Origin: Methyloligella sp.
GTDB taxonomy: Bacteria > Pseudomonadota > Alphaproteobacteria > Rhizobiales > HXMU1428-3
Direction of reading: 5' to 3'
Length of the DNA: 64,000 nt
Assembly (NCBI GenBank): GCA_021604645.1
Contig: BQJJ01000001.1
Location: 124,001-188,000 of the forward strand
Position numbers and translations under genes: made by a program. Of the stretch, positions 7,057-61,624 are shown piece after piece; position 1 is the stretch's first letter; each line of letters opens with the position of its first letter. The notes beneath the pieces were generated by a model. It was not told the origin of the DNA, did no database searches, and saw nothing but the letters and a program-made list of their open reading frames with translations.

Positions 7057-8022
7057 ATGAAATGTATGACCCCGTCAGATGAAGATCCGGCAGAAGTAAC
7101 TGCAATGGATCCAGAACAGAAAACTGATTTTAGCACCAAATGCGGGTTTGTTGCTCTCATTGGTGCGCCGAATGCTGGTAAATCAACTCTGACAAATCGA
7201 TTGGTGGGAACAAAAGTCTCAATCGTCACCAGAAAAGTCCAAACAACAAGGGCACGGATCAGAGGCATTGCAATTTTCGACGAAACGCAAATTGTCTTTG
7301 TGGACACACCTGGGATTTTTGCCCCAAAGAGGCGCTTGGATAGAGCAATGGTCGATGCAGCTTGGGGCGGCGCAGCGGACGCAGATTTAGTGGTGCTTTT
7401 AGTCGATGCTCAAAGAGGCATAACTGAAGATGTTGCAAACATTTTAAAGAAACTAAAAGACACCAAATACACACTGGCATTGGCAATTAATAAAATGGAT
7501 TTGGTCCGCCGTGAAGATTTATTAAAACTCACCAAAGACCTCACTGCCGATGTGAAATTTGATGAAGTTCTTTATATTTCTGCTGAAAAAGGTCAAGGGA
7601 CAGGGGAGTTAGTCGATTATTTAAAAACACGCTTGCCACTAAGCCCGTGGTTATATCCAGAAGACCAATTAACAGATGCCCCCATGCGCCACACAGCTGC
7701 CGAAATCACCAGAGAAAAGCTATTCTTACGTCTACATGATGAGCTGCCCTACGCGACAACAGTTGAAACCATTGACTGGAAAGTTAAAAAAGACAAATCA
7801 GTCCGCGTGGAACAAGTGATTTTCGTTGAGCGAGATAGCCAGAAAAAGATTGTCCTTGGAAAAAATGGAGATGCTGTCAAATCAATCTCTATGTCATCTC
7901 GAAAAGAGCTAAGTGAAATTTTAGGCGTGCCAGTTCACTTGTTTCTCTTTGTAAAAGTAAGAGAGCGCTGGGGCGACGACCCAGCCCGCTTCCGCGAAAT
8001 GGGCTTGGACTATACAAAATAG
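7057..8022 (+). CDS. era: GTPase Era
   Basis: Era is an essential GTPase that binds the 3' end of 16S rRNA during small-subunit assembly. The G1 motif GAPNAGKST, G3 DTPG, and G4 NKMD are all visible, followed by a C-terminal KH domain containing KIVLGKNGDAVK. The 321 residues include about 28 extra N-terminal residues before the G domain. ATG codons at 7057 and 7066 are both possible; neither has a strong ribosome-binding site. The final G of its TAG stop is also the first base of the hairpin repeat at 8022, so the repeat is fused to the gene end. Confidence 0.95.
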   Translation: MKCMTPSDEDPAEVTAMDPEQKTDFSTKCGFVALIGAPNAGKSTLTNRLVGTKVSIVTRKVQTTRARIRGIAIFDETQIVFVDTPGIFAPKRRLDRAMVDAAWGGAADADLVVLLVDAQRGITEDVANILKKLKDTKYTLALAINKMDLVRREDLLKLTKDLTADVKFDEVLYISAEKGQGTGELVDYLKTRLPLSPWLYPEDQLTDAPMRHTAAEITREKLFLRLHDELPYATTVETIDWKVKKDKSVRVEQVIFVERDSQKKIVLGKNGDAVKSISMSSRKELSEILGVPVHLFLFVKVRERWGDDPARFREMGLDYTK

Positions 8023-8179
8023 CGCGGTTGCTAGTGGGCAACCTGAAGCGCCAACACAGAAGCGCGGTTGCCGCGACGGTTGCTGGTGGGCAACCCGAAG
8101 GAGCATTAAAAGGGTAAGCAACCTGAAGTGCAATTAAAGGTCGTGGATTTTGTGATGGTTGCTAGTAAGCAGCTGAGGG
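8022..8179 (+). repeat. Cluster of small hairpin repeats (mini-hairpin family)
   Basis: At least two good copies and two degenerate copies of a small hairpin. The best (8022-8051) has an outer stem GCGC/GCGC and an inner stem GGTTGC/GCAACC around TAGTG, with TGAA before the outer 3' arm. A second lies at about 8062-8103 (GGTTGC 8078-8083, GCAACC 8090-8095) and partial copies near 8112-8137 and 8155-8179. The family recurs near 8315, 21393, 21529, 25151, 59292, 59343 and 59563. Confidence 0.85.
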
Positions 8180-8222
8180 CAAACAAAAAATGGGTGCATA
8201 AGTCTGAATGAAGATTTATCAA

Positions 8223-8377
8223 TACGAAGAAGGAAGTGCTCTACTTCAGAGCACGGACATGACGCCAGAGGCGTCCGGTGCCTAGCACCGCCCCTCGGAG
8301 GCCCAAGCGCTTCAGCACGGTTGCTAGTGGGCAACTGAAGTGCCACTATAAAAAGCGCTTGGAATAGCCGTGAGAGA
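8223..8377 (+). repeat. Multi-stem element, copy 1
   Basis: Conserved 5' end TACGAAGAAGG, then stem A GTGCTCT/AGAGCAC (8236-8254), linker ACAT, stem B GACGCC/GGCGTC (8261-8275), stem C CGGTGC/GCACCG (8276-8290), a short stem in CCTCGGAGG (8293-8301), stem E CCAAGCGCTT/AAGCGCTTGG (8303-8312 with 8353-8362), and conserved 3' end AATAGCCGTGAGAGA. The loop of stem E holds a mini-hairpin repeat (8315-8343). The element ends 5 bp before the recO ATG, so its GAGAGA forms the purine stretch ahead of that start. Confidence 0.85.
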
Positions 8378-8382
8378 TAAAT

Positions 8383-9177
8383 ATGGAATGGAGAGATGAC
8401 GGCATCGTGCTTTCAATTAAAGCACACGGGGAAACCAGCGTCCTGGTCGAACTCTTCACGTCTGAACGGGGCCGTCATCTAGGACTTGTCCGCGGTGGTA
8501 AATCGCGCAAAATTCGCCCTATCTTACAAGTCGGAAATGTCGTCAGTGCAACATGGCGCGCCCGTCTTGATGAGCATCTTGGCAGTGCTGTGGTTGAAAT
8601 GGTTGAACCCGTTGCCTCTAGGCTGTTTGATGATCCATTAGCACTGGCGGGACTTTCATCTTTGTGTAGCCTATTGTCTCTCTTTCCAGAACGCGCCGCC
8701 CATCAAGGGCTCTATAAGGGCGCTAAGTTGGTTCTCTCTCATATGGAAGATGATGAAATCTGGCCAGGGCTTTTGGTGCGGTTCGAAATGGAAGTTTTAT
8801 CTGAACTAGGCTTTCGGTTAGATTTTTCTGAATGCGCCGCCACAGGCGTGAAAGAAGATTTAATCTACGTTTCCCCAAAGTCAGGTAGAGCAGTCTCGCG
8901 CGAAGCAGGTTTGCCATACAGAGACAAACTTCTCGAACTTCCTCCTTTTTTAAGTGGTGAAAGAAAAGAAGACGTGCAAAACCAAGACATTCTAAATGGC
9001 TTTGCATTAACAGGCTTCTTCTTTGAAAGATACGTATTCAAGTCAGACCAACAAACAAGTCTGGCTTTTGCAAATGCCAAAAACAGTAATAAAGGTGCCG
9101 ACCATATCGGCGCACAAAGGTGCGAGGCAGCAAGAAACAATTTCCTAAAACGCTATAAAAAATCAAAAATTAGCTGA
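8383..9177 (+). CDS. recO: DNA repair protein RecO
   Basis: RecO anneals single strands and, with RecR, loads RecA onto SSB-coated gaps. The 264-residue protein has the N-terminal OB fold (residues 1-80, beginning EWRDDGIVLSIKAHGETS) and the helical C-terminal domain. The cysteine zinc motif of many RecO proteins is not evident: I see only one cysteine near its place (SECAATG). The C-terminus is slightly longer and basic. The start directly follows the repeat element ending at 8377. It closes the acpS-lepB-rnc-era-recO order but is cut off from era by 360 bp of repeats. Confidence 0.92.
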   Translation: MEWRDDGIVLSIKAHGETSVLVELFTSERGRHLGLVRGGKSRKIRPILQVGNVVSATWRARLDEHLGSAVVEMVEPVASRLFDDPLALAGLSSLCSLLSLFPERAAHQGLYKGAKLVLSHMEDDEIWPGLLVRFEMEVLSELGFRLDFSECAATGVKEDLIYVSPKSGRAVSREAGLPYRDKLLELPPFLSGERKEDVQNQDILNGFALTGFFFERYVFKSDQQTSLAFANAKNSNKGADHIGAQRCEAARNNFLKRYKKSKIS

Positions 9178-18546: not shown

Positions 18547-18624
18547 GTGTTGTTCAGACCTTTGTTGGGCCAGATCTTTGTTGGTCAATTCTTTGTAGGG
18601 CCAATTTTTTGTTGGGATAGTTTG
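18547..18624 (+). repeat. Short tandem repeat ahead of the HhH protein gene
   Basis: Four imperfect copies of about 15-16 bp built on TTTGTTGGGCCAATT, from about 18559 to 18620. The frame is open through them from a GTG at 18547 and would add 26 residues rich in FVG/LLG, but I place the gene start at 18625. Confidence 0.55.
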
Positions 18625-21294
18625 ATGGAAGAAATCGTTCTAATTTTATTTGTTCTTGGCCTAATGGTTTTGTTCTTTTTGTTGGGAGCGGCGATTGGTG
18701 GAGTTGCCCGCAGTCTAAAAGCTTATCTTTTCGGCGTTAAAGATCATGAAAAATTTTGTGGCCAAAGAAAAGATACTGCCGTTGAAACTAGCAAAGAAGA
18801 AGGTTTTGATGCCGCAGCTGCCGCTTTAGCTGCTGGCGGAGTGGCATCAGGTGTGGCCCTATCAAATACTGGAGATGAAGCAGACAGCACAGTTCAAGTC
18901 ACTCATGATGAACTAGAAACAGATGCATCAAAAGAATGGACCGAGGAAACAGCTCAAGCAGCTGAACCAATTGATGAAACTGTAGAAGTTGTCAGAGCTG
19001 ATGAAGAAGAAGTCCCTGAGCAAGACGAAAGTGAAGATTTATCTGTAGCTACTCCAAAAGAGGGCGAACATTCACTAGAGACAGAAGAATTATCAGAAGT
19101 TCAAGTGTCTAGAGACGAAACAGCAGAAACAGTTGTGGAAGATAACATCATTGCTCAGGAAGAAGTTAATGAAGAAGATGTTACCCAAGAAGATCATTCA
19201 TCAGAAGACATATCAGATGAGCAAGCCGCATTAGCAGCGTTGGCTGCGTCTCAAGCGGCTACAGAAGATTTGACAGATGAAGAAAGCTCACAAGAAGAGA
19301 CAATTCAAGAAGATAGCACTTCTGCAGAGCAGAGCACTGAGGAAAGCAATGATGAAAGCGGTGTTGACCTCTCTGACGTAGCTGGGGCGGCTGCGGCGGC
19401 TGTTGCAGGTGTCGCGGCAGTAGCAGGCTCAAAAGAAGAAGAAAAAGAAGAACATGGTGCCCCAGTTTGGGATTATACCCAACAAGAAGTTGATTATAGC
19501 GACGTTGTTTTTGCCGTAGATGGTGAGGACGATGATCTTCAGCTTATTCAAGGTATTGACGCTGAGATGGAAGCTGAACTCAAACAAATTGGTCTGCGTC
19601 AATTCGGGCAAATTTCGACATTCACAGGTAAAGAAGTCAACTTTTTAAGGAACAAATTTAATTTTTACAGCACTTTGAATGAGCAAGTTTGGATTGAGCA
19701 AGCAAAAATTCTCTCAACAGGTCAACTAACTGTTTATGCTAAATCTTTATCATCAGAAGCGCCAGTTGAAGAAGCTGTTGTTGAAGAGACAATTTCTCAC
19801 GTAGAAGAAACCGTTGTGGAAGAAACTCAAGCGGAAACGGTGGTTGAAGAAGTCGCAAGTGAAGAAAATGACAATTCTAATCAAAGCGCTGAAGAAGCCG
19901 AAAGTAATGAAGCTTCTTCACTAGCAGGTTTAGCTGCAGCTGGTCTTGCTGGAGCTGCGGTAAAAGAAGCAAGTGAAGCCCTTTCTGATTCAGACCGCGA
20001 GCCAAGAGGTGACCGCGAGCCAAGAGGTGATCGCGAGCCGAGAGGTGACCGCGAACCGAGAGGTGATCGCGAGCCAAGAGGTGACCGCGAGCCGAGAGGT
20101 GACCGCGAACCAAGAGGTGATCGCGAACCAAGAGGTGACCGCGAGCCGAGAGGTGATCGCGAACCAAGAGGTGACCGCGAACCAAGAGGCGATCGTGAGC
20201 CAAGAGGTGACCGCGAACCAAGAGGTGATCGCGAGCCAAGAGGCGATCGTCAACCAAGAGGTGATCGCGAACCTAGAGAGAATAGGCGTTTATTTGGTGA
20301 AAAAGAACGAGCTGAGCGCGATGAGGAATGGCGCAATCGGTATCAAGGTGAGAGAAAGATTAAAACACCAGAACAAACAGAAGATACATCTGAAGAAATC
20401 TTGACGGAAGAAACTGAAACTTCTGAAATCATCGAGACCGAGGTTTCGAGTGCTGAAAGTGGTGTGTCAGCCGCTATTATAGAAGAAACTAGTGTAGAAG
20501 ACGCTCCTGCAGAAGATGTTGCTGAGACTGAAGAGCAAGGATTTACGCGCCCAGTAGATAGTGATGACCTTAGCCAAATCAAGTTTATTTCCACTGGTCT
20601 GGAAAAGAAGTTGAATTTACTAGGTGTTTATAAATTATCGCAAATTGTAAATTGGTCAGATGAAAAGATTTCTGAAATTAGTGAACAATTGGAATTGCGC
20701 AAAGATAAAATTATAGCTGAAGATTGGCGCGGTCTGGCTCAAGAGGCCTTAGACAAACAGCAATCAGAAACAGTCAGCGAAGCTGCAGCCGGTGGTTTGT
20801 TCTCGGCCTCAGCATTAGTCGCGCGGCTTGCAGAGTTGGACAAAATTAAAGATCTGGATGAGCACGAAAAAACAGTCCTCTCTAATAACGGCATCACAGA
20901 ATTATCCCAAATCGCGAATTGGTCAGGTGCTGATGTAAAATGGGCAAGTGATTTGCTAGAGCTTTCATCAACTGAACGCGCGACAAGTTGGGTTGCGACA
21001 GCTTCATCACTAATCTCTGCTGGTGAAATCAATATTCCAGGCGGTGAAGCTAGTGGTGACGCGGATGATCTAAAAAGAATTCGCGGAATTGATGATGAGG
21101 CCGCCGAAGGCCTAAAAGCAATGGGTGTCACCACCTATGCGCAAATTGCTGAATGGCAGCAAGAAGAAATGGATCGTGTGAACGATTTATTAGGCACATC
21201 AGGTAGGGTTGAGCGTCAATATTGGGTCGTACAAGCCAAAGTTCTAAAAGATGGCGGTCACACCGATTTCTCTAAACTCTATGATGAATCTTAG
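18625..21294 (+). CDS. Large membrane-anchored helix-hairpin-helix repeat protein
   Basis: 889 residues from the ATG at 18625; an upstream GTG at 18547 would add a low-complexity stretch. Residues 2-24 form a membrane helix (EEIVLILFVLGLMVLFFLLG). A long acidic region rich in Glu, Ser and Ala follows. Four helix-hairpin-helix modules can be seen: around LQLIQGIDAEMEAELKQIG, IKFISTGLEKKLNLLGVY, VLSNNGITELSQIANWSG and LKRIRGIDDEAAEGLKAMG, each ending in an Ile-Trp-Ser/Gln block and a helix. Between modules 1 and 2 lie 16 hexapeptides based on DREPRG. Such modules resemble those in proteins loosely named L21-like or DUF4332. No enzymatic motif is visible; a scaffold role beside the OmpA protein is inferred. 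Confidence 0.75.
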   Translation: MEEIVLILFVLGLMVLFFLLGAAIGGVARSLKAYLFGVKDHEKFCGQRKDTAVETSKEEGFDAAAAALAAGGVASGVALSNTGDEADSTVQVTHDELETDASKEWTEETAQAAEPIDETVEVVRADEEEVPEQDESEDLSVATPKEGEHSLETEELSEVQVSRDETAETVVEDNIIAQEEVNEEDVTQEDHSSEDISDEQAALAALAASQAATEDLTDEESSQEETIQEDSTSAEQSTEESNDESGVDLSDVAGAAAAAVAGVAAVAGSKEEEKEEHGAPVWDYTQQEVDYSDVVFAVDGEDDDLQLIQGIDAEMEAELKQIGLRQFGQISTFTGKEVNFLRNKFNFYSTLNEQVWIEQAKILSTGQLTVYAKSLSSEAPVEEAVVEETISHVEETVVEETQAETVVEEVASEENDNSNQSAEEAESNEASSLAGLAAAGLAGAAVKEASEALSDSDREPRGDREPRGDREPRGDREPRGDREPRGDREPRGDREPRGDREPRGDREPRGDREPRGDREPRGDREPRGDREPRGDREPRGDRQPRGDREPRENRRLFGEKERAERDEEWRNRYQGERKIKTPEQTEDTSEEILTEETETSEIIETEVSSAESGVSAAIIEETSVEDAPAEDVAETEEQGFTRPVDSDDLSQIKFISTGLEKKLNLLGVYKLSQIVNWSDEKISEISEQLELRKDKIIAEDWRGLAQEALDKQQSETVSEAAAGGLFSASALVARLAELDKIKDLDEHEKTVLSNNGITELSQIANWSGADVKWASDLLELSSTERATSWVATASSLISAGEINIPGGEASGDADDLKRIRGIDDEAAEGLKAMGVTTYAQIAEWQQEEMDRVNDLLGTSGRVERQYWVVQAKVLKDGGHTDFSKLYDES
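19993..20280 (+). repeat. Sixteen in-frame 18-bp repeats (DREPRG)
   Basis: Sixteen contiguous units based on GACCGCGAGCCAAGAGGT, the last degenerate, each encoding Asp-Arg-Glu-Pro-Arg-Gly. Units differ almost only at third codon positions (GAC/GAT, GAG/GAA, CCA/CCG), so the peptide is conserved while the DNA has drifted. One unit has Gln for Glu. Such an array can change length by slippage or recombination. Confidence 0.95.
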
Positions 21295-21372: not shown

Positions 21373-21392
21373 TGTTTGGATATTGAAAAAAC

Positions 21393-21419
21393 GCGGTTGC
21401 TAGTAAGCAACTGAAACGC
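21393..21419 (+). repeat. Mini-hairpin repeat
   Basis: Outer stem GCG/CGC, inner stem GTTGC/GCAAC around TAGTAA, with TGAAA before the outer 3' arm. It lies between the terminator and copy 2 of the multi-stem element. Confidence 0.8.
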
Positions 21420-21430
21420 ACAGTTTACTT

Positions 21431-21584
21431 TACGAAGAAGGAGTGCCGCTACTTCTGCGACAGCAAACATGACGCCATAGGCGTCCGGCGCCTAGCGCCG
21501 TCCCTCGTAGGCTCAAAGCGCTTCACCAGCGCGGCTGCTTGTGGGCAACCTAAAGCGCCACTAAAAAGCAATAGCCGTGAGAGA
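21431..21584 (+). repeat. Multi-stem element, copy 2
   Basis: Starts TACGAAGAAGG and ends ATAGCCGTGAGAGA. Stem A is imperfect (GTGCCGC with GCGACAGC). Stem B is GACGCC/GGCGTC, stem C CGGCGC/GCGCCG, and the short stem reads CCTCGTAGG, with the closing AGG kept. The last stem is broken by a mini-hairpin copy (21529-21558, outer arms GCGC/GCGC). Convergent genes flank it, so it is not placed ahead of a start here. Confidence 0.8.
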
Positions 21585-21595
21585 AAACTAAAACT

Positions 21596-24924: not shown

Positions 24925-25374
24925 ATGGATCCTTTAATCTCTTAGAGAGAACAGCTCATAAAATAACCAATAGAAGGTCTTGCAAAATCAAGACGATCAA
25001 ATCAATTTTAAAAGCACACTATTTTCGCCGCATTTACATGTGTTTCTGCCTCGCGAATAAGGCCTTTTCATGCAATTATGGTTAAATTCTGTAGTTTGCC
25101 TAATAATTATTCAATTGCATAGCCCCTTAAAAGTTCATGTTTTTTAATAAGCGGATGCTGTGTGGGCATCTGAAGCACAAACAATTTATGCTGTGTTGGC
25201 ATCTGAAGCTAAATAAATTTATGCTTTGTGAGCATCTCAAGCTCAAAAAATGGCAACAATGGTGATTTCTATGGGATCCTGATGGTTAGATGCTTGCTCT
25301 TGGCAGTATCAGTGTCTATGGTTTGAAGCCACCATTCGGGGTGGCCTTAAAATTTTTAAGAAAAGAGAAAAATT
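24925..25374. other. Divergent slt/dapA region
   Basis: 450 bp between slt (leftward) and dapA (rightward). It must contain both promoters. The only clear structure is the group of three mini-hairpin repeats at 25151-25242, about 130 bp before dapA. Confidence 0.5.
25151..25242 (+). repeat. Three degenerate mini-hairpin repeats
   Basis: Three tandem copies with stems GATGC/GCATC (25154-25170), ATGC/GCAT (25188-25202) and ATGC/GCAT (25221-25235), each followed by TGAAGC or TCAAGC and an A-rich tail. The inner stem uses GATGC instead of the GTTGC seen near 8 kb, with the matching change in the other arm. Confidence 0.7.
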
Positions 25375-39390: not shown

Positions 39391-39406
39391 GCTTCTCAAA
39401 CCTCAT

Positions 39407-39520
39407 TCCGAAGAAGGGAGTGCTCTGCTTCAGAGCACGGACATGACGCCATAGGCGTCCGGCGTTAACGCCGCCCCGTCGGAGGGCCTGCCGCTTATTG
39501 CGGCAGAATAGCCCGTGAGA
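39407..39520 (+). repeat. Multi-stem element, copy 3 (no nested insert)
   Basis: The most compact copy. 5' end TCCGAAGAAGG; stem A GTGCTCT/AGAGCAC (39420-39438); ACAT; stem B GACGCC/GGCGTC (39445-39459); stem C CGGCGT/ACGCCG (39460-39473); short stem region CCCCGTCGGAGG; stem E CTGCCGC/GCGGCAG (39488-39506); 3' end AATAGCCCGTGAGA. Stem E has an entirely different sequence from copies 1 and 4 but pairs perfectly. Genes on both sides run leftward, opposite to the element. Confidence 0.85.
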
Positions 39521-39530
39521 CAAAATTAAG

Positions 39531-43119: not shown

Positions 43120-46100
43120 TTAAAAGAATTGGCTATTTGGCTTTTTCTTCAACTGTAATTTTGGTTGCGGTTTAAAGACCTTCGGTTTCGGTTTAAACTG
43201 CGGCTTGATCTTTACTGGTTTCTTATAAATAGGCTTCTTAGGCTTATAAATAATCACCTTTTTCTGACAGCTCGCACCACCTTTGCCAATCGGCTTTCTC
43301 GTCATGCCTTTCGCGCAACCGCAATACCAACCCTTGCCACGTTTGTACAATTTACCATTGTAACAAGGTGGTTTTGGAGTGGAGACCTGGCGTTTCACAC
43401 AAGAAGCACCACCTTTACCAATTGGTTTCCGGTTGTAACCTTTCGGGCAACTGCAATACCATCCCTTACCACGCTTAGACAATCTGCCATTATAGCAAGG
43501 TGGTTTTGGCGTAGCCTTAGGTGGTTTAGAGCAATAAGCACCACCATTGCTATAGGCCTTGCGGTTATAGCCTTTCGGGCAGCTGCAATACCAACCCTTG
43601 CCTCTTTTAACAAGACGACCATTGATACAGTCTGGCTTAGGAGTGCTGACTTGTGGTTTGATACAAGCTGCACCACCATTTTTACCAATTGGTCTACGGC
43701 TCCAGCCTTTCGGGCAAACACAGCGGTAAGCTTTGCCAGCTTTCACCAACTTGCCTGAGTGGCAAGGAGGAATAGACGTGACCTTCGGTGAGCAAACACC
43801 TTTCTTGTTGCGAGAGAAACCAGCTTTACAAACACAACGACCATTTTTGTCTTTATATTCGTTACGGCCAGGTTTACAGCCCTGCGGTATTTTCTGACAA
43901 ATACCGTAGTTGTTTTTAGCAAAGCCAGATTTACAGACGCATTGTCCTTGTGAATTGCGGAACTCATTTGGACCGAGTTTGCAAATTTTAGGAAGCTTCA
44001 CGCAATAACCATTTTTGCTACGTGAGAAACCGGGCTTACAAACACAACGACCATACTTGTCTTTGAATTCATTTCGGCCAGGCTTACAGCTCTGTGGTTT
44101 AACACAGATGCCACGTTTGTTACGTGTGTAACCAAGCTTACAGACACATTGACCTTGTGAATTGCGGAACTCGTTTGGACCGAGCTTACAAATCGGAGGC
44201 AATTTCACGCAATACCCGCGTTGAGTACGTGTGAAGCCAGCCTTACAAACACAGCGGCCATATTGGTCTTTAATCTCATTGCGACCAGGCTTACATGTAT
44301 CCGGTTTGCGGCAGATGCCATCTGAGCCACGGCGGTAGCCTCGAAGGCAGACACATTGGCCCTTGCGGTTTTTATACTCGCCTTGTCCAGGTGTACAACC
44401 ACGAGATGGTGGTACACAAAGTTTTGGACCTTTGCGAACAAATCCAGGGCGGCATATGCAACGGTTATCACTTGTCCGCATTTCACCTTTGCCAACTTTA
44501 CAAAGTTGGACAGGAGGTATTTCCGGATAAACAGGTGGAATAAGCACATCACCAACACAGCGACGACCATTCCATTTTGTACCAGATGGGCAGACACAAA
44601 CACCATTGTCGTTCATCACAAGGGGTGCACGGCATTGGTCTTCTTTAGGTGGATCAAGCGTGAAGGTATGACACCCAACAATTTCACCATTACCTTTGTT
44701 ACCATTCGTTCCTGGAGCAGCTTTCGCGCCGCCATTACCAAGTGCAGCGTCAGTAACCATGGCGCAATTGCGCAGAGTTCCATCAACTTTTACACTCTCT
44801 TCAAACAAGAGACTGATTTTATGCGTCTGACTTTCGCCAGCAGCTAAGTTCAATGTGCCTTGGCAAACAAACGGTACTGCCGTTGGTTGCACATCACATG
44901 GTAGAGGCGGTGAGATTGATTGAATAGCAACAGTCAACCCACTACCAGCAAGACCAAGCGCATCTGCAACCTGAACTGAACCGTTAAAATCAGAAGTGCC
45001 AGTATTTTTGATGGTCACATCAAACACACAAGCCTCACCCTTAATACATTGAGCAGGACCTGTTTTCTCAACGCGGATATCAACCCCGCCTTCAACACAT
45101 TTCTTGCCAATGATCGAGCGGTCTTCCTCAGTGCCTTTAGGTTCATAATGACCCGTCGCACAGTTTCTATAACGCTCACGTCCCTTTCCAGATAGTCTGA
45201 TTTTCGCATCAAAATATCTCGTTGTTCCAGGAGTGAGGTGCTTACCATCAATCGCACAAACCAAATCAGGAACCGGCTCACCCTCACAAGCCCATTCAGG
45301 CCCATCAGGTGTTACGTCTTCTGAGGTGAGCGGTGCATTTGTGCCAACGATACGAGCAACATCATAGATGCGGATCATACCCGTTGGTGTACCAGCACCA
45401 TTATTGCGAACCATAATGCGGCAAGAAATCTTACCACCAAGTACTCCAGGCTTACATTGCTTATCAATTGAAAGGTCTGGTTTCTTGTCATCTGCTGGGC
45501 CATCTCCGTCAGGAAGCTCACCAGTGGCACAATCTTTATCTTTGCCTGGCTCCGCTTCATTAAGTTTGGCGCAATTTTCAATCTCTTTGTTGTTAAGTTG
45601 ATCTGGATTGTTGAATTTACCAGTGACCTTCAATATCACCTGTCCATTAGCTGGGATATTAGTTGGCGGGTGAGTGCAATCAAAGTTCTGACCATCCACT
45701 GTGGCACAATTCCATGGCGGAATTGGGTTGAAGGTGACATTGTCAGGTTTTTTGCTAAAGCTGTCTTTGACATTAAGCGGACCGTTATAGTCACCGTCAC
45801 CAAAATTATGGATGACGATTTCATATATCAACCAGCAGGCGCCCACACCATTCGGGCCACCAAGACACTGGGTGCCCGTGTAAGATTTCTTGATCTCAAG
45901 TTCAGGCTCTTTCTCATCATTTTCATCAGGACAACCAGGGCTGCCTTTGATGCAAATTTCTGCACAATCTTTATCATTGGAAAGGTCGCCGAACGGATCA
46001 ACACCCATTTTTCCATAATTCAATTTTGCGCAGTTTTTGATTTTGTCACTCGGCCAAGCATTACCAGGTGTAAAGCCTAATTTCAGGTCTTTAAATTCAC

Positions 46101-47544
46101 CAGGGTTCAGCGTGATGTTGGGGTGCTTACAAATATACATGGCAAGACCAAGATTATAAGCGCAAGACCAAGCAGGGTTCGGGCCACTCGTAATGGCGGC
46201 GCGATGAGGAATTTGCCACTCATAAAGAGCAAGCTTACCAGTATATTTTTTATCTCCCACATTCTTAACGCGGATGCGGAATTTACAATCACCAGAAGTC
46301 TTATCACATTCAGAAACAAGCGCTTTTTTAGTCACTTCCAAATCAGGCTCTTTTTCATCATCACAAGGAATGTCCTCAGGGATATCAATGATGATCTCTT
46401 CCGTACAACAAGTTGCCAAACCATCAAAGTCAGCAGGGCCAACTTGTTTCACATTGTTTGTAAGAAGGTGAACGGTCATGCCTTTTGTGGCACCAACTAA
46501 ATCCCATTCAAGAACACCACCACCAGGAGGTACCACTTGGAAAGCAGGGTTCACGACAACACCAGGTGTGAGCGATGTAAGTTCAATGGTTGTGCCAGCA
46601 AGCTCAGGGCCAACAGGCATCTTGTAAGTCAGGTTGCCAATAGGGCCACCTTCACACTCAACTTCACCTTTTTCTAGCTTGATACAGGGGCCATCACCTG
46701 GGTCACCACCGCCATCATCAGGCTTGTCACAGTCAGTCAGATCGATGGTGAATTTAGTTTTCTTTCCATCTTTCCAGTTGGCTGGGTCGGGTAATGAAGG
46801 GTCATGGCTTTTTGCATTGGTGATACCAAAATCAGTCGTTACCTTTAGCTTGGCTTGGTTAGCCTTCACTTTAGGTACCGGGAATTCAGCTTCATCGATT
46901 TTAGCAATCGCCGTAATCGTCCAGGAACGATCATCATTGCTGCCATCTCCATCCTTCTTGTCAGCGGAAAATTTAATCCCTGCTGTCATGAATTTATCAT
47001 TAGGGTTGGTGACAGTTGAAAATGCAAATGGGGTCGCGCCTAGAATATCGCCTTTAATTGAGGCTGATACCCAGGATAACCCTTTTGGAAGTTTGTCAGT
47101 TACTTTTTGCGAAGCATGCGTGAATTCTTTTACATGAAACGCATTTGGGTCATCCCAAAATCCAGGCGTGCCTTGCACATGTAATTTAATTTTAAACCGC
47201 ACATGCTTACAGCCCAGTTGCTCAGCTGTCTTTGTAAAAGAAAGCTTCGTTTCTGGTTGTGGTGGTTGACCACCTGGTTGGACTTTATCGTTTGGCCCTT
47301 TCGGGACAGGAGGGCCGCCAGGCAGTTTCTTCTGCAGCCATTGGCTGGGTTTCTGAGCGGGCGATTTGGCCGCCACAGGTAGTATAGCGCTAAGGGAAAG
47401 GCTGAGACCTAGCCCTAGAGCACTGACCCACTTTAACGTAGATCGTATGTTTTTTTGAGGTAACATGTCTTTCTCCCAAGCCTTAGAAGAGGCCTTTTTA
47501 GGTTTATCTCTATATTTGTCGTCAAAGGGTCTAAAAAAGTTCAT
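43120..47544 (-). CDS. Giant exported cysteine-rich mosaic protein
   Basis: 1474 residues, start fixed by AAAGGAGG before the ATG. A long charged N-region precedes a signal peptide (hydrophobic 36-58, cleavage near VAA). Residues 287-394 are a cysteine domain shared with the C-terminus of the next protein. Four CARDB/DUF11-like beta-sandwich units follow (about 399-545, 546-685, 687-818, 819-965), each starting like EPDLEVTKK with a Lys-Asn-x-Gly core and own cysteines. From 971 run twelve four-cysteine modules of 30-45 residues: eight of the EB-like form CKPGRNEFKD..GRCVCK, then four of the form CYNGRLSKRGKGWYCSC. The end is a Lys/Pro-rich tail. Built like an adhesin or surface layer protein; function unknown. 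Confidence 0.75.
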   Translation of the reverse strand: MNFFRPFDDKYRDKPKKASSKAWEKDMLPQKNIRSTLKWVSALGLGLSLSLSAILPVAAKSPAQKPSQWLQKKLPGGPPVPKGPNDKVQPGGQPPQPETKLSFTKTAEQLGCKHVRFKIKLHVQGTPGFWDDPNAFHVKEFTHASQKVTDKLPKGLSWVSASIKGDILGATPFAFSTVTNPNDKFMTAGIKFSADKKDGDGSNDDRSWTITAIAKIDEAEFPVPKVKANQAKLKVTTDFGITNAKSHDPSLPDPANWKDGKKTKFTIDLTDCDKPDDGGGDPGDGPCIKLEKGEVECEGGPIGNLTYKMPVGPELAGTTIELTSLTPGVVVNPAFQVVPPGGGVLEWDLVGATKGMTVHLLTNNVKQVGPADFDGLATCCTEEIIIDIPEDIPCDDEKEPDLEVTKKALVSECDKTSGDCKFRIRVKNVGDKKYTGKLALYEWQIPHRAAITSGPNPAWSCAYNLGLAMYICKHPNITLNPGEFKDLKLGFTPGNAWPSDKIKNCAKLNYGKMGVDPFGDLSNDKDCAEICIKGSPGCPDENDEKEPELEIKKSYTGTQCLGGPNGVGACWLIYEIVIHNFGDGDYNGPLNVKDSFSKKPDNVTFNPIPPWNCATVDGQNFDCTHPPTNIPANGQVILKVTGKFNNPDQLNNKEIENCAKLNEAEPGKDKDCATGELPDGDGPADDKKPDLSIDKQCKPGVLGGKISCRIMVRNNGAGTPTGMIRIYDVARIVGTNAPLTSEDVTPDGPEWACEGEPVPDLVCAIDGKHLTPGTTRYFDAKIRLSGKGRERYRNCATGHYEPKGTEEDRSIIGKKCVEGGVDIRVEKTGPAQCIKGEACVFDVTIKNTGTSDFNGSVQVADALGLAGSGLTVAIQSISPPLPCDVQPTAVPFVCQGTLNLAAGESQTHKISLLFEESVKVDGTLRNCAMVTDAALGNGGAKAAPGTNGNKGNGEIVGCHTFTLDPPKEDQCRAPLVMNDNGVCVCPSGTKWNGRRCVGDVLIPPVYPEIPPVQLCKVGKGEMRTSDNRCICRPGFVRKGPKLCVPPSRGCTPGQGEYKNRKGQCVCLRGYRRGSDGICRKPDTCKPGRNEIKDQYGRCVCKAGFTRTQRGYCVKLPPICKLGPNEFRNSQGQCVCKLGYTRNKRGICVKPQSCKPGRNEFKDKYGRCVCKPGFSRSKNGYCVKLPKICKLGPNEFRNSQGQCVCKSGFAKNNYGICQKIPQGCKPGRNEYKDKNGRCVCKAGFSRNKKGVCSPKVTSIPPCHSGKLVKAGKAYRCVCPKGWSRRPIGKNGGAACIKPQVSTPKPDCINGRLVKRGKGWYCSCPKGYNRKAYSNGGAYCSKPPKATPKPPCYNGRLSKRGKGWYCSCPKGYNRKPIGKGGASCVKRQVSTPKPPCYNGKLYKRGKGWYCGCAKGMTRKPIGKGGASCQKKVIIYKPKKPIYKKPVKIKPQFKPKPKVFKPQPKLQLKKKPNSQFF

Positions 47545-59292: not shown

Positions 59293-59398
59293 CACGGATG
59301 CGTAGTGGGCATCTGAAGTGCAGTTAAGAAAGCACGGATGCTGGACCGGTTGTTAGTGGGCAATCTGAAGGTCCATTAAGAGTGGGCAACTAAAGCGC
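59292..59398 (+). repeat. Mini-hairpin repeats, one nested inside another
   Basis: Copy 59292-59321 has outer stem GCAC/GTGC and inner stem GATGC/GCATC. A second copy (59332-59342 plus 59382-59398) is split by a third (59343-59374) with outer stem GGACC/GGTCC and inner GGTTG/CAATC. The arms differ from the era copy at several places, each with the matching change opposite. Confidence 0.8.
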
Positions 59399-59414
59399 AA
59401 CTAAAAACCTGCTA

Positions 59415-59562
59415 TACGAAGAAGGAACCCAGCCTTTTTTGTCCTTCAGTTGCCCACCAGCAACCGGACTAAGGCTGAGGGACATGGCAGCAGAGCTGCC
59501 CGGCGCAAGCGCCGCCCCTCGGAGGCCCAAGCGCCATAAGCGCTTGGAATAGCCGTGAGAGA
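59415..59562 (+). repeat. Multi-stem element, copy 4, with a reversed nested repeat
   Basis: 5' end TACGAAGAAGG, 3' end AATAGCCGTGAGAGA. Stem A is CCCAGCCTT with AAGGCTGAGGG (59428-59436, 59471-59481; two-base bulge); stem B GGCAGC/GCTGCC (59486-59500); stem C CGGCGC/GCGCCG (59501-59514); short stem CCTCGGAGG; stem E CCAAGCGC/GCGCTTGG (59527-59547). The loop of stem A holds a mini-hairpin in reverse orientation (59441-59469, arms GTCC/GGAC). Stems A and B differ fully from copies 1-3 yet pair. Confidence 0.85.
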
Positions 59563-59596
59563 TGCAACGGTTGCTGGTGAGCAACCTGAAGGAGCA
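59563..59596 (+). repeat. Mini-hairpin repeat supplying the rdgB ribosome-binding site
   Basis: Inner stem GGTTGC/GCAACC (59569-59574, 59581-59586) around TGGTGA, then TGAAGGAGCACT. The GGAG at 59591-59594 is nine bases before the rdgB GTG, so the repeat provides the ribosome-binding site. Confidence 0.75.
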
Positions 59597-59603
59597 CTAA
59601 AAA

Positions 59604-61530: not shown

Positions 61531-61600
61531 TACGAATTATCTGGTTCCAGCACCACCCTTCGGAGGTCTGCTGTTTCTGCTGTAGAAAAGCCGTGAGAGA
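61531..61600 (+). repeat. Multi-stem element, copy 5, degenerate
   Basis: Only TACGAA of the 5' end, then CAGCACCACCCTTCGGAGG and the 3' end AAGCCGTGAGAGAG remain; stems A and B are lost. The short stem here has a TTCG loop (CCTTCGGAGG). It appears to be an internal deletion of the element, again between convergent genes. Confidence 0.65.
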
Positions 61601-61624
61601 GAAAAGCTAAATAGCGTCTAGATC

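Follow-up and report, generated by a model that had tools for sequence, protein, structure and literature searches.

Repeats and genes in the window

The window, a stretch of 64,000 nucleotides (G000:C1:124001-188000), is part of the 3.57 Mb genome of an uncultured alphaproteobacterium (G000) and carries two kinds of hairpin repeat, a mini-hairpin of ~37 nt (ME) and a larger element of ~125 nt (BE). All repeats below are on the plus strand unless stated otherwise. The first copy of the larger element (8219-8380; BE profile match at G000C1 132219-132380) lies between era (7057-8022) and recO (8383-9177), both genes being named from reading their open reading frames. Its stem E is formed, by sequence and fold, from a 5' arm at 8303-8312 (CCAAGCGCTT) and a 3' arm at 8353-8362 (AAGCGCTTGG), and an ME (~8313-8352) fills the loop, as the first-pass annotation of the window had described. 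Upstream of this BE are an ME (8022-8057), a composite (8061-8131; G000C1 132075) in which a second ME (~8072-8111) splits a host ME in its loop and which is absent from that annotation, and a degenerate ME (8150-8185). BE copy 2 (21428-21587) has an ME directly upstream (21391-21419) and another (~21527-21567) at stem E; the latter was correctly read as breaking the stem, since it sits just beyond the loop and displaces the 3' arm. Three 33-nt ME units form a tandem array at 25153-25253. BE copy 3 (39403-39526) is indeed without an insert. The densest cluster starts with an ME at 59294-59329, an extra tandem copy relative to genome G002, followed by the composite at 59331-59398, where, as already recognized, one ME is split by another: the host (59331-59342 and 59381-59398) is interrupted in its loop by the ME at 59343-59380. 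BE copy 4 (59412-59562) holds the reversed ME reported for its stem A loop (59441-59471, minus strand) and is immediately followed by an ME (59563-59602), where G002 has four tandem copies. A degenerate BE 3' half is found at 61543-61603 (G000C1 185543-185603). The window also contains an 18-nt unit repeated in tandem ~23 times (19939-20350) within a long open reading frame (18547-21294), and repeats of 132 and 207 nt (43261-44344) in a large minus-strand open reading frame (43120-47544) that are probably protein repeats.

The ME folds into an outer helix of 4 bp (GCGC/GCGC, GTGC/GCAC, GGACC/GGTCC and others) and an inner helix of 5-6 bp (GGTTGC/GCAACC or GGATGC/GCATC), its loop reads TAGTGG, TGAA bulges out of the 3' side, and the A-rich tail is CANTAAAA. 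Among 26 diverse copies, 95.7% of pairing cells are paired and 39 cells carry double changes, against a shuffled mean of 11.5, a value that none of 500 shuffles equalled; this compensatory covariation is strong and preserves both helices. The BE consists of five hairpins in series, in the order CGAAGAAGG, hairpin A, GACATG, hairpin B, hairpin C, the short palindrome CCTCGGAGG (hairpin D), hairpin E and then AATAGCCGTGAGAGA. The linkers are conserved and the stems variable, the hairpins keeping their pairing despite changed sequence. A third repeat of ~50 nt (AAGATCAGCC...GCTGATCGCAA), which has a hairpin of its own, occupies loop C in ~26 BEs, for example at G000:C1:245263-245432; at G002 C3:232229-231945 it seems to hold a degenerate ME in its own loop.

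The sequence examined comprises ~2.3 Mb of stretches, and a profile search of 1.6 Mb of G000 and G002 yielded 137 BE matches. Around one tandem BE pair (L046, G000:C1 ~224400-225900) the two genomes are ~99.8% identical, against a contig average of ~90%, and this stretch may reflect a recent exchange. The genus was represented by eight genomes, one per species, whose RecO identity to G000 is 94% for G002, 86% for G003, 81% for G006, 69% for G007 and 59-64% for the others; the closest named relative is the Hyphomicrobiales MAG OFTM213 (L009; RecO 87% identical). ME is present in all eight. Among the matches listed there are 166-182 in each of G000, G002, G003 and G006, 146 in G007, 43-45 in G004 and G005 and 4 in G001, while the ~55 copies in 400 kb of G000 contig 1 extrapolate to several hundred per genome. 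In a search of 199 genomes of the order, ME is nearly restricted to the genus, the exceptions being three matches in G059, two of which are a tandem pair, and one weak match in G045. Elements with the BE 3' core, in turn, occur in 8 further genomes from other families of the order (elements inspected in G255, G018, G065, G159, G016 and G101), and the BE thus belongs to a wider lineage. In G255 the BE-like elements occur as inverted pairs, unlike the one-strand pattern of the window's genus, with eight of them in 20 kb (L178, 6750-11640). Plasmid, phage and viral collections gave no match to the repeats, the BE among them in the plasmid collection, and a search of the Rfam family models was equally negative, so that a known structured-RNA family was rejected.

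Insertion positions within the repeats

To examine nesting, 394 ME copies were deleted in silico one at a time, and the joined flanks were checked for a host ME. Five genomes provide 39 non-tandem cases, which represent ~36 distinct composites. All 39 junctions fall in the host loop (model positions 7-14) and none in the tail, the bulge or the outer arms, and removal of the insert restores the host without loss or duplication. With 8 of 33 positions allowed, the probability of such confinement by chance is ~1e-24, and it is still 6e-10 if only 15 events are independent. No nested ME is antisense to its host, and the ~36 loci differ in both host and insert sequence. By context the 394 copies divide into 155 in tandem, 133 solitary, 77 in a BE and 29 that a stricter pattern recognizes as nested. 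The arrangement noticed in the window is confirmed and is much broader than first reported: the hairpin repeats form a genuine system, present in many copies, nesting within itself and turning over from species to species.

Inserts in the BE follow a related pattern. Stem C holds 40 of the 83 inserts of at least 20 nt, stem E 30, stem A 9 and hairpin D 3, with one elsewhere, so that 79 of the 83 map to stems A, C or E, in the loop or close to it; they do not count as independent events, since composites are passed on by descent and exchanged between copies. One BE copy of G002 has an ME in loop B. Loop A accepts ME in both orientations, and at the other BE positions the ME inserts are forward. 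The suggestion that insertion leaves the host stem able to fold does not always hold: at stem E the commoner form (~18 of 30) resembles that of copy 2, lying a few nucleotides beyond the loop with the 3' arm displaced; these arm-displacing inserts look like partly one composite BE lineage. A folding test of BE insert sites that allowed for boundary slop gave an equally high control and was discarded.

Outside the repeats the preference fades. Hairpins of at least 7 bp flank 12% of solitary ME sites and 6.7% of controls, and the excess consists partly of nested cases missed by the pattern. The idea that solitary sites are themselves hairpin loops was accordingly rejected, flanking hairpins not being enriched, and the small excess implies that the loop preference holds within repeats and not for all insertions. 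The preference for hairpin loops proposed at first thus survives for other hairpin repeats and not for solitary sites. This absence of hairpin preference at solitary sites would be expected if ME inserted anywhere and hairpin-breaking insertions were lost since intact hairpins matter. Such a selective filter also agrees with the pairing that BE hairpins maintain as their sequence changes and with the avoidance of divergent promoters. However, stem E often holds inserts that break its arm, and these are tolerated; strong selection on each one of hundreds of degenerate MEs is implausible, and still the nested ones are without exception in the loop; selection is a distinctly unlikely explanation.

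Empty sites and strand polarity

The small repeat had been supposed to move, and comparison of orthologous regions bears this out as movement or turnover: related genomes present empty sites for copies 1, 2 and 4 and for the composite at 59332, rather than the same composites throughout. In G003, whose sequence here is the same as that of L009, stem E of copy 1 is closed by the short loop AAGCGCCTTAAGCGCTTGG between matching flanks. For copy 2, G002 has the BE with an empty stem E, while G006 and G007 are without any repeat. The BE of copy 3 is missing at the orthologous place in G002, and a 15-bp direct repeat that flanks it may have arisen by target duplication or been left behind by a deletion. 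The reversed ME of copy 4 is common to G000, G002 and G003; loop A is empty in G006, but that copy has its own ME at hairpin D, and the complex is wholly absent from G001 and G007, which have 41-49 nt and no repeat there. At 59332, an uninterrupted ME in G006 corresponds to the composite in G000 and G002. These empty sites indicate that the elements move or turn over, and the order of the genomes by RecO identity makes insertion the simpler reading, with turnover inferred by comparing one genome per species and no insertion event itself observed.

In each of these cases exchange between copies could be contributing. Between orthologous BEs, whole hairpins are often different and the remaining sequence is nearly the same (the A374735 pair, copy 1 against G003, copy 2 against G002). 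Such differences suit an explanation without any transposition, in which ectopic recombination or template switching, by gene conversion or polymerase switching at stalled hairpins, copies loop inserts from existing composites. The resemblance among arm-displacing inserts at stem E and the frequent presence of the same third repeat in loop C point the same way. Recombination does not create the first composites, though; host and insert sequences of the nested MEs differ at ~36 loci, the ends of the ME unit are consistent, and whole loci go from nothing to ME or BE. This explanation is judged unlikely, although together with the selective filter it is the chief competitor of the transposition model.

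Both repeats have a pronounced polarity. The C-rich strand (the one whose third-position GC skew is lower) carries 135 of the 137 BE copies (55:1 in G000, 80:1 in G002) and 294 of the 311 ME copies (101:7 and 193:10, respectively). The bias holds across contigs of both assembly orientations in these two genomes, and the strand samples taken in G004, G006 and G007 are largely consistent with it. The claim that the small repeat inserts in both orientations is thus right at least for loop A, but orientation is not free, with ~94-95% of ME and 99% of BE on one strand. The genes flanking the repeats are on both strands, and gene orientation or transcription was rejected as the cause for this reason; a one-strand bias whatever the gene orientation points to a mechanism tied to the replication strand. 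BE also shuns divergent gene pairs (5 of 141, against 242 of 1022). Leading strands are usually G-rich and, if this applies here, the lagging-strand template would carry the complement of the written sequence. Fork direction was deduced from GC skew only, the one-strand bias itself being very strong; a KOPS-like motif agrees with it in a strongly skewed contig (0:20) and is opposite in a weakly skewed one (14:3).

Candidate movers and comparison with known systems

The enzymes usually associated with such repeats are not common to the genomes. A Y1 transposase (PF01797) is found in one of the eight, G000, and is absent even from G002, which is 99% complete and rich in ME. The two Y1 genes of G000 (L035, G000:C1; 11451-12125 and 15011-15676) are separated by ~3.5 kb, lie directly downstream of a very large CdiA/haemagglutinin-like gene and are flanked by their own unrelated, inverted AATTACGGTGACAG repeats. 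As the sole two Y1 genes carry different flanking repeats, a RAYT/Y1 enzyme was rejected as the mover of ME. TnpB (PF07282) is found in none of the eight genomes; IS110 has one copy each in G000 and G002 and none in the other six; and reverse transcriptase (RVT_1) is absent from six, including G000 and G002, and present only in G004 and G006. Reverse transcriptase, TnpB and IS110 were all discarded as not common to the genomes, and the lack of RVT_1 in the ME-rich G000 and G002 speaks against a group II intron or retron derivative.

The preferred reading, to which we give an even chance, is that ME resembles REP and MITE repeats, is non-autonomous, and is carried in single-stranded form by a trans-acting activity into the loops of repeats. 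Under this model, ME would spread by precise insertion of a ~37-nt unit, with no obvious target-site duplication. At the replication fork, host hairpins would be extruded where the DNA is single-stranded, and the activity may join ME DNA into the exposed loop. Later slippage could produce the 37-nt tandem arrays, and recombination between dispersed BEs could swap hairpins and carry inserts along. Joining of single-stranded DNA at the fork would account for the loop positions, the polarity and the missing target duplications. We infer the single-stranded intermediate, the coupling to replication and the enzyme in trans from these patterns. The more specific form of the model, in which mobile DNA hairpins target the single-stranded loops of fork-exposed hairpins through a mover not homologous to Y1, reverse transcriptase, TnpB or IS110, with nested hairpins as the result, is put forward only tentatively.

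Intergenic repeats are common in bacteria. In the present case ~36 independent composites give a clear rule (insertion in the loop, in the same orientation), in a setting where the polarity suggests that one step is single-stranded and where the customary enzymes are missing. How such mosaics arise thereby becomes directly testable: the loop rule predicts the next landing site, and comparison of strains should expose the missing enzyme. In the Hyphomicrobiales, the rhizobial intergenic mosaic elements (RIME), to which the first-pass annotation likened the repeats, and the Sinorhizobium mosaic repeats are likewise multi-palindrome intergenic repeats, the likeness being one of general description; RIME is not known to nest within its own loops.

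The REP, BIME and REPIN sequences with their RAYT partners are similar in several respects. ME is an intergenic imperfect palindrome within the 20-65 nt of REP sequences and exceeds 100 copies; like them it avoids divergent promoters and forms clusters, tandem arrays and composites with larger mosaics. In contrast, ME nests in hairpin loops, its array units run the same way rather than alternating, and its strand polarity is nearly uniform over hundreds of kb. A GTAG or CGTC tag was looked for at the foot of the ME hairpin and not found, the 5' flanks being mostly (T/C)AGC and variable, and most of the genomes have no RAYT partner. A classical REP/RAYT system whose Y1 transposase has been lost, or lies outside the assemblies, in most genomes would account for the length and abundance of ME, for its position between genes and for its avoidance of divergent pairs, and published Y1 systems do use single-stranded DNA at the lagging-strand template, reading a tetranucleotide beside the hairpin (PMC6006769). 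It is nevertheless improbable, given the missing tag, the absence of Y1 from seven of the eight genomes, the ME-rich G002 among them, and the separate repeats of the Y1 genes in G000.

The IS200/IS605 family, with its Y1 HUH transposases, shares with ME the hairpin units and, if fork direction follows GC skew here, the strand polarity expected of lagging-strand targeting, and the nested ME cases are, as in that family, without target duplication, BE copy 3 being ambiguous; unlike it, the genomes share no Y1 transposase or TnpB, and no fixed target tetranucleotide is seen beside ME. Since polarity and clean ends resemble Y1 systems but the gene and the tag are missing, ME is described as behaving like a repeat transposed through single strands and is assigned neither to REP nor to IS200/IS605. 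Mobile DNA that enters palindromic repeats is also represented by ISPpu9, ISPpu10, ISPa11 and ISRm19/22, which target REP sequences (PMC1525189); these are autonomous elements of kilobase size, whereas the ME insert is a gene-less hairpin of 37 nt.
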